Source: an uncultured beta proteobacterium (GTDB lineage: Bacteria; Pseudomonadota; Gammaproteobacteria; Burkholderiales; Rhodocyclaceae). From it: a stretch of 43,598 nt of DNA. The first letter of the stretch is position 1. The number at the start of each line of letters is the position of its first letter. The DNA lies in assembly GCA_903848955.1 (NCBI GenBank), contig CAINHS010000057.1, positions 1 to 43,598 of the forward strand, given 5' to 3'. Shown piece by piece: positions 16,980-34,449 of this stretch. Made by a program: the position numbers and the translations under genes. The notes below the pieces were generated by a model. The model made no database searches, had not been told where the DNA came from, and saw nothing but the letters and a program-made list of their open reading frames with translations.

Positions 16980-18052
16980 TGCCGCCACTGGCCGAGGGCG
17001 TCGGCAGGGAGCACGCCGCGCTCGGAAATGACGCCGCTGATCAAGGCCGCCGGCGTTATATCGAAGGCCGGGTTTGCCGCCGGCGTGGCGCCTGCGCCAA
17101 GTTCTGCCGCGTCACGCTCTTCGATCGGAATCGCGGCACCGGACGGGCAGGCGAAATCTATGGTTGACAGCGGTGCGGCGACATAGAAGGGCACGCCGTG
17201 GGCACGGGCGGCGAGCGCCTTGAGATAGGTTCCGACCTTGTTGGCGGTGTCACCGTTGGCGGCAATGCGATCGGCACCGACGATCACCAGATCGACCTTG
17301 CCCTGCATCAGCAGCAGCCCCGCGGCGTTGTCGGCAATCAGGGTATGCGGCACGCCCGCTTCGCGCAGTTCCCAGGCCGTGAGCAGACCCTGGTTGCGCG
17401 GCCGGGTTTCGGAAACCCAGACGTGCACCGGCACGTCCGCTGCCCGCGCGGCATATACCGGCGCCAGCGCTGTGCCGTGTTCGACCGTGGCGAGCCGCCC
17501 GGCATTGCAGTGGGTCATGACATTGACAATGTCAGGCGCAGCCTGCCTGAAATAGTCACCCCCTTGCCCGGGAAGGGGGCCGGGGGGATAGCCCTTCTTC
17601 TGTTTGCCGAAGGCTGAATGGATTGCAGCTATCAGCGGCAATCCATTCAGCCCGATCGCGCTGTTGGCGGCCCTGTCTTCCACCGCAATCGCTCGCGCCT
17701 CTGTCCATGCGATCTCGCGCCGACCCTGCGGTGGCGTTGCCTGCAGCACGCGCTGCATGCGCGCCAGCGCCCAGTGCAGATTGACCGCTGTCGGCCGTGT
17801 CGCGGCGAGCGTTGCTATGACCTGCTGCAGCCGGTCATCGCCGGCGTCGTCGGCCAGACCCAGCGCCACCCCGTAGGCGGCAGTGGCGCCGATCAGCGGT
17901 GCGCCGCGTACCTGCATGACGCGGATGGCGTGAGCGGCATCTTCGAGCGATGCCAGCCGCAGCATGACCGCTTCGTGCGGCAGCCGCGTCTGGTCGAGTA
18001 TGAGGACGGCATCGCCGGCCTCGACAAGCGTCGGATGCCTTTCCCGGGTCAA
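16976..18052 (-). CDS. mtnA: S-methyl-5-thioribose-1-phosphate isomerase
   Basis: A 358-residue sugar-phosphate isomerase of the eIF2B-like family, converting 5-methylthioribose-1-phosphate (or 5-deoxyribose-1-phosphate) to the ribulose form. [25 protein letters not shown], the catalytic Cys in MTHCNAG and Asp in [18 protein letters not shown] are all present. The TTG start at 18052 overlaps the secA stop (TTGA), so translation is probably coupled; another TTG lies 15 codons upstream inside secA, and there is no ATG. Between ...LPLIAAIHS and [12 protein letters not shown] the protein carries about 25-30 residues not usual for the family, encoded by a palindromic repeat (17551-17593 and a hairpin at 17612-17652). 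The frame stays open. Confidence 0.93.
17551..17593 (-). repeat. Gene-embedded GC-rich palindromic element, copy in mtnA
   Basis: Read on the mtnA strand, a run of CCCCCCGG-CCCCC is followed by CTTCCCGGG-AAGGGGG and ends GGTGACTATTTC. The core arms are 17559-17565 and 17573-17579. It encodes the segment [15 protein letters not shown] inside MtnA (about residues 154-168) without breaking the frame. The same design and the same GTGACTA end occur in ftsQ and, in the opposite orientation, in murD. Confidence 0.75.
17612..17652. repeat. Perfect 14-bp inverted repeat inside mtnA
   Basis: GGCTGAATGGATTG at 17612-17625 is mirrored perfectly by 17639-17652 with a 13-base loop. Both arms are translated (NGL...IHSA). 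It lies 18 bases from the palindromic element at 17551-17593 and together they make up the extra segment of MtnA. Confidence 0.85.
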
Positions 18053-32956: not shown

Positions 32957-34449
32957 GAACGGTCCGCCAGCGCCTGCACCGCGGCGACAAATACCTGCGC
33001 CCGGTGCTCGTAGTTGCGGAACATGTCAAAGCTGGCGCACGCCGGCGAAAGCAGCACGGCATCACCCGGCCGGGCCAGCGCACGGGCACGGCGCACCGCG
33101 TCCCCCATGTCGGTGGCGTTCTCGATCGCCACGCCGGGTGCGGCACCCAGGGCTTTCTCGATCAGCGGCCCGTCGCGGCCGATAAGCACCGCGGCGCGGG
33201 CATGGCGCGACACCGCGTTCCTGAGCGGCGAAAAATCCTGCCCTTTTCCATCGCCGCCGGCAATCAGGACGATTTTTGGATCGTCCTGATTGCCGGTGGC
33301 GGCCAGAGTGCCATCCCTCCCGACCTCCCTTCCCGGGGAAGGGAGGTGACTATTCCGGGCGGCCAGTTGGCCGCCAATTCCCATTAACGCCGCGACCGTG
33401 GCGCCGACATTGGTGCCCTTCGAATCGTCATACCAGGTAACGCCATCGAGGTCTGCGATCTTCTCGACCCGATGCGGCAGGCCGCGGAAACTGCGCAGGG
33501 CCGGCAGCAATGCGGTGACATCGAAGCCGAGCGTGACGCACAGGGCCAGCGCCGCCATGGCGTTGGCGGCATTGTGCAGGCCGGCCAGCGGCAGCGCCGA
33601 TACCGGCAGCAGAAAGCGCTCGCCCTGCACCAGCCAGGCTTCGCCGCGGTTCGGGCGCAGGCCGAAGTCATCGTTGGCGGCGGGTGCGTCGAGGCCGAAA
33701 GTGATGATGCGGCAGTCAGCCAGCGCCATCCGGCGTACCCGGGGATCGGCGCGGTTCAACACTTGCACGCAGGGTGCGGCTGCCGTGTGCTGGAAGACTC
33801 TGGCCTTGGCGGACGCGTATTCGTCGAGATCGATGTAGCGGTCGAGGTGATCGTCGGAGATGTTGAGCACCGTCGCCGCGTGAGGGTTGAGCGTCTCGGT
33901 GGTCTCCAGTTGGAAACTGGAAAGCTCGAGCACCCAGACCTGCGGCAGGGCGTCTGCATCGAGCGCATCCATCAGGGCGGTCAGCGCCGCGGGCGAAATA
34001 TTGCCGGCGACGCCGACCGTCTTGCCGGTGGCGCGCAGCAGGTGTCCGGCCCGTGCGGTGGTGGTGGTCTTGCCGTTGGTGCCGGTGATCGCCAGCACCG
34101 GTGGCGGCGCCGCGCCGTCGCTGCACAGGCCGCGCAGACCCCGGGCGAACAACTCGATCTCGCCGACCACCGGGATGCCGGCGGCGCGCGCATGGATCAC
34201 CACCATCAGCCCGCCCGAAAGGCCTGGCGACAGCACCAGCAGATCGATGTCCGCGAGCAGCTTCTTGTCGAATTCGCCGGCGACGAATTCGGCGCCGGGA
34301 ACCCGCCGCCGCAATTCGCCCAGATAGGGCGGCGCCGTTCGCGTATCCGCCACCCGCAGCCGCGCCCCCTGCCGCGCGCACCAGCGCGCGGCAGCCAGGC
34401 CGGATTCGCCGAGGCCGAGAACCAGGACGTGTTTGTCGTTCAGCTCCAT
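32953..34449 (-). CDS. murD: UDP-N-acetylmuramoylalanine--D-glutamate ligase MurD
   Basis: A 498-residue Mur ligase adding D-Glu, longer than the usual ~440-460. [14 protein letters not shown] (about 9-22) and the P-loop GTNGKTTTT (123-131) are intact, as are [31 protein letters not shown] and [14 protein letters not shown]. The extra length is explained by about 33 residues between [14 protein letters not shown] and [12 protein letters not shown], encoded by a palindromic element flanked by a direct repeat (residues 362-384) and a 17-bp inverted repeat. The insertion sits between the conserved Lys/Asn loop and the C-terminal domain, probably on the surface. Confidence 0.96.
33257..33296. repeat. 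Perfect 17-bp inverted repeat inside murD
   Basis: CCGGCAATCAGGACGAT (33257-33273) pairs perfectly with 33280-33296 around a 6-base loop. The left arm encodes the conserved IVLIAGG segment of MurD; the right arm is an inverted copy of it, translated as GNQDD upstream of that segment. Confidence 0.9.
33298..33366 (+). repeat. Gene-embedded palindromic element in murD with 9-bp flanking direct repeat
   Basis: On the plus strand (antisense to murD) CCATCCCTCCCG is followed by a palindrome with perfect 12-bp arms (33323-33334 and 33336-33347, one-base centre) and then GTGACTATTCC, the same end as in mtnA. The 51-bp element (33307-33357) is flanked by direct repeats GGCGGCCAG at 33298-33306 and 33358-33366, looking like a target-site duplication. 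Element plus one repeat is 60 bases, 20 codons, so the frame is kept. Confidence 0.8.

Follow-up and report, generated by a model that had tools for sequence, protein, structure and literature searches.

How can a hairpin-forming DNA repeat be tolerated inside genes and at the junctions of operons, where insertions are expected to break translational coupling? The question is raised by a stretch of 43,598 nucleotides from an uncultured beta proteobacterium of the family Rhodocyclaceae (assembly GCA_903848955.1, contig CAINHS010000057.1), referred to below as the window. The original prediction, made from the letters alone, placed one palindromic element in frame inside three unrelated genes, mtnA, ftsQ and murD. 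This motif proves to be one hairpin of a larger three-hairpin repeat, and the full copies of that repeat occupy junctions between genes, where, going by open frames, a start codon follows immediately. We consider, with a probability of about two in three, that this non-autonomous hairpin repeat is interspersed and probably mobile, and that it persists in operons because ribosomes can pass through it.

The element and its distribution

Two covariance models were used. The first, R2, covers the 47-nt hairpin module (C-run, hairpin, GTGACnACGGTTC) and was trained on 23 copies from the own genome, the ftsQ copy included and the mtnA and murD copies left out; the second, R1, covers the full element and was likewise trained on 23 own-genome copies, the ftsQ copy among them. 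In the window, R2 recovers all three predicted sites, at 26198-26244(-) in ftsQ (50.8 bits, E 2e-10), 17549-17593(-) in mtnA (46.8 bits, E 2e-9) and 33310-33355(+) in murD (33.2 bits, E 4e-6), while the six remaining listed matches score at most 16 bits. Genome-wide, the R2 E values are 1.9e-8, 1.7e-7 and 3.1e-4, respectively, and the murD copy is the weakest of the three with R1 as well (E 0.06). The end motif AAGGGRGGTGACTATTCC, with up to three mismatches, occurs at two places in the window (mtnA and murD) against 0.01 expected. The common design is real and the three sites, which are the sole strong R2 matches in the window, are related; their frames are indeed open, and copies run both with and against the genes.

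In the flanks of other matches, a second conserved core, CCTTGGGGCGGCCCKGCGG, was found. The full unit measures about 107-122 bp and consists of a C-run, hairpin 1, GTGACnACGGTTC, hairpin 2, about 20 nt, and hairpin 3 with the core CCTTGGGGCGGCCCKGCGG. The unit as originally described was too short, since the ftsQ copy reaches the ftsA start, and it lacked the third hairpin; neither the overlap of start and stop codons nor the frame rule set out below had been noticed. Conversely, its extent to 26283 in ftsQ had taken in a neighbouring imperfect palindrome that, by eye, is foreign to the element, and the palindromes adjoining the copies in mtnA and murD are likewise distinct from it, being inverted duplications of sequence from the host genes (Table 1). 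Across 23 aligned copies, 89.5% of the stem cells are paired compared with 69.0 in shuffled alignments, and double-sided changes number 98 compared with 30.3. Each of the six outer pairs of hairpin 3 shows three to six standard pair types, and RNAalifold recovers hairpins 1 and 3 unaided. No terminal inverted repeat was seen by eye.

The motif is enriched genome-wide, as had been anticipated. In the own genome (3.6 Mb), R2 gives 42 matches at E<=1e-3 among 53 listed at E<=1, and R1 gives at least 41 among 49; 23 are training copies in each case, and the R1 count is a lower bound because 150 of 4119 first-look candidates were scored. Judged by MurD, most of the named relatives are Sulfuritalea or Rhodocyclales metagenome-assembled genomes. 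With R1 at E<=0.01, the element is present in all 31 genomes of the Sulfuritalea-like genus searched (own included), in all six other genomes of the same family, three of which hold only one to four matches, and in a single genome of the 24 from other families. In a wider draw of 250 genomes at E<=1e-6, six held the element: the own one, four others of the same family and, from another family, G119. Three of the listed same-family genomes had no match, and for 224 genomes without a match the kinship is not itemised.

These results bear on whether the copies might be chance GC-rich linkers without a common origin. The genome is GC-rich and the murD copy scores poorly with the full model, but the covariation, the genome-wide matches, the R2 result in the window and the comparison of MurD and MtnA orthologues given below make such an origin scarcely credible; it is excluded for ftsQ and mtnA, and for murD the exclusion rests on the E value of 3.1e-4.

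The frame rule at gene junctions

The position of the full copies was studied in 90 R1 matches (62 + 28) in loci, of which 86 entered the analysis after one duplicate and the three weakest matches were left out. Eight more were dropped (seven without a locatable core, one spurious), leaving 78 full copies: 28 from the own genome, 19 from 1.2 Mb of genome G002 and 31 from the loci of relatives. In 77 of the 78, a frame open for 80 codons or more starts within about 45 nt of one end. In 49 copies (42 forward, 7 reverse), a frame in the direction of the gene opens at an ATG at one element end, continues for about 38 codons and stops no more than 8 nt from the ATG with which the next gene begins; the overlap is ATGA in 39 of these.

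With fixed windows (stop at -12 to +8 relative to the next start), 41 of 55 forward copies stop at the next start, compared with 0 and 7 of 55 in the shifted frames. For the reverse copies, which are read on the other strand, the figures are 9 of 13 compared with 0 and 0. The length from GTGAC to the core is a multiple of three in 53 of 56 forward copies (42, 48, 51 or 60; the exceptions are 49, 50 and 53) and in 4 of 13 reverse copies, and nine copies fall in neither class. Counted by source, under a slightly different class rule, 13 of 17 forward copies of the own genome are in frame compared with 0 and 1 when shifted (reverse, 5 of 6 compared with 0 and 0), as are 22 of 24 in the relatives' loci compared with 0 and 1 (reverse, 2 of 3). 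In one genome taken by itself, G002, the frame signal is weak.

Tandem copies extend the pattern. In L357 (two copies, period 113), the frame of the first copy ends as ATGA on the second, which in turn ends as TAATG on the next gene. A single frame of 113 codons crosses the three copies of L353 and L354 (period 111) and ends as ATGA at the next gene. The frames are likewise fused in L356 and L364 (two copies, ending in ATGA at the next gene) and in L355 (three copies, ending in GTGA), and in L359 the frame of the first copy stops 5 nt before the next ATG. Among 13 further matches, some of which are copies in the L357-L359 arrays, 11 are coupled in one reading or both and two in neither.

The forward frame encodes M..FPPxPFPRKGVTxVRxxxPLxxxDxxPPWGGPAEAA*, which is similar in most coupled forward copies, whereas the peptide of the reverse frame (MSAxRRAAPR...) is unrelated; the DNA rather than the peptide therefore seems to be conserved. 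The similarity of the forward peptides is what would be expected of a real gene for a small protein of about 38 amino acids that has been duplicated around the genome. We regard such a gene as very improbable, since the DNA core of the reverse copies looks equally conserved by eye while their peptide is unrelated, and since neither Pfam (two peptides) nor NCBIfam (three peptides) gave a match.

Several points weigh against a general frame rule. Under the rule used, 29 of the 78 copies have no coupled frame. In G002, 6 of 12 forward copies are in frame compared with 0 and 5 of 12 when shifted (reverse, 2 of 3). A GTGAC-to-core length of 51 is shared by 43 of the 56 forward copies and several of the copies from relatives are at a shared site, which means that common descent accounts for part of the frame signal. 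The G002 result and the shared length call for the most caution. One of the shifted-frame controls is easy to beat because GTGACT itself contains TGA. Moreover, gene starts were assigned by way of open frames, and with GC-richness of this order a share of these frames must be spurious; the forward and reverse classes were set by a simple sequence rule under which locus L093 may be misplaced.

If the frame were only a by-product of GC-richness and ATGA overlaps, the element could be a structured RNA or regulatory leader (a terminator, attenuator or ribosome-binding module) placed before many genes. The strong covariation of the stems agrees with this, as does a GGAGG just ahead of the next ATG in many forward copies. 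It nevertheless appears unlikely: the element lies in both orientations relative to the gene, close relatives have empty sites, shifted frames reach the next start in 0 and 7 of 55 copies (although in 5 of 12 in G002), and no Rfam family was found at the element (E<=5 at 8 loci; gathering scores at 6 loci).

Insertion and mobility

When both flanks were searched separately by BLAST, 12 pairs of filled and empty sites were obtained from the 54 copies tried. In the cleanest pair, L072/L292, 116 bp are inserted at GTGCT|ATGAACGC, with ATGAA on either side. The pairs L080/L283 and L110/L109 are similar, and ATGAA is also present in L080/L283; the other pairs are more diverged and their junctions less clear. 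By these alignments, the filled and empty pairs show insertion. The left and right flanks of the 39 coupled copies agree at ATGA and no further beyond chance, so the ATGA may be either a target duplication or the end of the element itself. No clear excess of identity past ATGA, as a long target-site duplication would leave, was seen in these 39 copies.

The size, hairpins and copy number of the element resemble those of repetitive extragenic palindromic sequences (REPs) and bacterial interspersed mosaic elements, and an ordinary REP that is mobilised by a REP-associated tyrosine transposase (RAYT) and merely lies close to genes might be considered. Y1 transposases occur in 33 of the 46 genomes of the wider draw that were searched, and in 23 of 28 of the genus. 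The own genome, in which such a transposase was to be looked for according to the original prediction, gave no Y1_Tnp (RAYT) match; nor did G001, G007, G012 and G018, yet these hold 25 to at least 58 element matches each. The loci of about 3 kb around eight Y1 genes (five of the genus, three of other families) contained no R1 match at E<=1. A RAYT was rejected as the mobiliser on the grounds of the own genome and of these eight loci. No GTAG/CGTC tag is found directly at the foot of the stem, the foot reading GTCACC on the reverse strand in alignments (by eye), and copies with GTGACTAC are the only ones to contain GTAG, which there is set apart from the stem. An ordinary RAYT-mobilised REP is quite improbable on these observations.

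Proposed explanation and significance

Our preferred explanation is passage of ribosomes through the repeat. A ribosome that ends the upstream gene would re-initiate at the ATG of the element, melt the hairpins while translating about 38 codons, stop at the ATGA and hand over to the downstream gene. Through such passage, an insertion would neither cut translational coupling nor cause polarity, and the insertions that keep the relay would be the ones that survive. Partial copies inside genes would survive where the frame is open, adding about 26-40 residues between conserved blocks (MtnA, MurD, IleRS and an RND pump). In most copies examined, a frame is kept open in the gene direction, and protein synthesis can probably run through the repeat. 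The new part of this work is the frame rule together with its likely meaning, that ribosomes pass on to the next gene, the translation itself being deduced from sequence; the rule was not found in a search of open-access papers on REPs or miniature inverted-repeat transposable elements (MITEs) and translational coupling, or on Sulfuritalea repeats.

On a wider reading, these elements would represent a class of mobile repeats specialised for the start/stop overlap of operons, which insert in either orientation and are translationally silent owing to a pass-through frame. The forward and reverse subfamilies would each have evolved a frame of their own, and tandem copies would act as relays. At the protein level, such a class would correspond to splicing as a route to harmless insertion. 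For this reading, we see the chances as evenly balanced.

If ribosome passage is correct, it would show how repeats can colonise gene junctions, those of the cell-division cluster included, at little cost. Small 'hypothetical' frames that precede operon genes in these organisms could be explained in the same way, and the many natural variants offer a means of testing whether coupling works by re-initiation. The intragenic copies provide a further set of protein insertions outside Rickettsia that resemble Rickettsia palindromic elements (RPEs).

Copies in the window and inside genes

The features of the window are collected in Table 1. At the ftsQ/ftsA junction, Pfam FtsQ_DivIB_C ends at residue 256 of the 313 residues of FtsQ. 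In genomes G002, G007 and G010, ftsQ and ftsA overlap in TGATG and there is no element, and in G013 the element stands between the two genes and has a small frame of its own. The window shows a third state, in which ftsQ has lost its stop and the end of FtsQ is formed by the element frame; with the loss of that upstream stop, the element peptide would now be the C-terminal tail of FtsQ.

Table 1. Coordinates of the element copies, their host genes and adjoining duplications in the window (E values genome-wide; ORF, open reading frame)
Feature	Position	Strand	Basis
Full-length element, ftsQ/ftsA junction	26117..26244	-	R1 26117-26239, E 1.2e-19 (training copy); R2 26198-26244
Parts of this element: C-run, hairpin 1, GTGACTACGGTTC, hairpin 2, hairpin 3 core CCTTCGGACGGCCAGGCGGAGG		-	
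ATGA at element end: ftsQ stop (TGA, 26130-26132) overlapping ftsA start (ATG)	26130..26133	-	ORF ends, sequence
ftsQ, element frame as C-terminal tail	26130..27071	-	ORF
ftsA (presumed), downstream gene	24901..26133	-	ORF
Partial element in mtnA: C-run, hairpin 1, GTGACTATTTC, hairpin 2; no hairpin 3	17502..17593	-	R1 17502-17589, E 8.7e-6; R2 17549-17593
mtnA	16976..18097	-	Residues 157-188 without counterpart in aligned solved MtnA chains
Inverted duplication of mtnA sequence adjoining element	17612..17652	+	19-nt arms, 95% complementary
Partial element antisense to murD: hairpin 1, GTGACTATTCC, hairpin 2	33310..33393	+	R2 33310-33355, E 3.1e-4; R1 33314-33393, E 0.06
murD	32953..34449	-	Residues 363-388 without counterpart in aligned solved MurD chains
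Inverted duplication of murD sequence adjoining element	33252..33301	+	22-nt arms, 95% complementary

Only the 5' half of the element is present in mtnA and murD, where it lies in linkers. The intragenic location that had been predicted holds for these partial copies, whereas full copies occupy gene junctions instead. Orthologues free of the element exist, as foreseen. For MurD, 25 of 26 genus loci could be extracted; 14 are short at the insert site and 11 are longer, of which two carry the inverted duplication only (138 nt) and two a tandem duplication. For MtnA, 28 genomes of the genus gave a match and 12 could be extracted with the anchors used; five of these have the element (judged by the peptide), two have the element with a second element nested in it, three have a different insert and two are empty. 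In both MurD and MtnA, the element is in frame in unrelated genes and missing from some orthologues, as is the case for RPEs. Among 14 loci examined in the own genome, further in-frame hosts are IleRS, where about 40 residues separate positions that almost adjoin in solved IleRS structures, and an RND transporter, in which comparison with solved structures indicates an in-frame insertion.

Some observations concern the surroundings of these copies. In the inverted duplication of murD sequence (33252-33301 in the window, and loci L128-L135), the copy resembles, by eye, each genome's own flank, a pattern that palindrome correction by template switching would produce. Loci L164, L165 and L169 of other genus members carry a different insert (HPLPQEGLTSSPPPPGGGGREG and similar) at the MtnA linker that holds the element here, so the loop looks like a hot spot for insertion. 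In the mtnA loci L172 and L173, the second element (RPTAGFAxPAGxGGAEQCSAKPRxRP) is nested in the first and the frame is still open.

Other repeats in the window

A second palindromic family (ACCGCAGAGGCGCAGAGGCGCAGAG and its inverted copy, about 100-110 bp) is found at 31569-31665, 34457-34568 and 35763-35871, and more weakly at 8297-8427. The first three places are junctions of the same division cluster, which we take to be murG/ftsW, murD/mraY and mraY/murF. In addition, a 36-bp direct tandem duplication with copies 92% identical and a length divisible by three lies at 29080-29151, in a gene that is presumably murC.

Relatives and known systems

The exact core of the element occurs 31 times in 27 stretches of viral contigs, mostly in a shorter unit; L384, for example, is of the shorter type with a tandem spacing of 87, and L371 is of the long type. 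After removal of identical and near-end copies, 22 distinct viral-contig copies remain, 12 of which have start codons in both forward windows. Of these, 8 are coupled in frame compared with 2 and 0 when shifted; in reverse, 1 of 5 is coupled compared with 1 and 0. Short relatives on viral contigs and plasmids (L376, L384, L397 and others) stand partly at gene starts and partly obey the frame rule. Similar DNA is present on five plasmid records from Burkholderia, Paraburkholderia, Azoarcus and Acidovorax. The Azoarcus sp. KH32C copy separates two genes annotated as transketolases and, on inspection by eye, is in frame with the second. Phage records gave no match to the shorter relative.

A repeat of this kind has been described in Betaproteobacteria as BRE (Hot et al. 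2011, PMC3110155). It is GC-rich and about 90 bp long, with a unit of 75-91 bp, tandem arrays, partial copies and some copies in coding sequences, and its hosts include Bordetella, Polaromonas, Delftia, Acidovorax and others, with one copy in Azoarcus. The shorter relatives with the exact core fit this size and host range and, matched by description through these features and the tandem arrays, are probably BRE. The suggestion that the family is undescribed was too strong, because Betaproteobacteria widely carry a shorter repeat that has the 19-nt core in common with it. The unit of the genus, itself probably related to BRE, is longer (107-122 bp) and has the extra hairpin 1, and the account of the repeat in that paper proposes no function and mentions no coupling frame (PMC3110155).

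The likeness to RPEs, which had been noted from the start, is upheld at the level of description, in that a repeated, mobile-looking family is also found in frame within unrelated genes. RPEs are palindromic repeats in frame in unrelated genes and are tolerated as added peptide (PMC10969869); they differ in host, and here the full copies lie at junctions with a frame kept on either strand. REPs of the GTAG/CGTC and RAYT types are similar as short intergenic hairpin repeats, whose ends can supply a stop codon and of which intragenic examples are known (PMC3733652, PMC2817692), but the present element is larger, with three hairpins, and has no linked RAYT in the eight loci tested. Finally, the Chunjie MITE of Geobacter uraniireducens is 178-235 bp long with conserved terminal inverted repeats, and it shares with the element, to go by the title of the report, insertion into an operon that leaves the operon structure undisturbed (PMC10969869).

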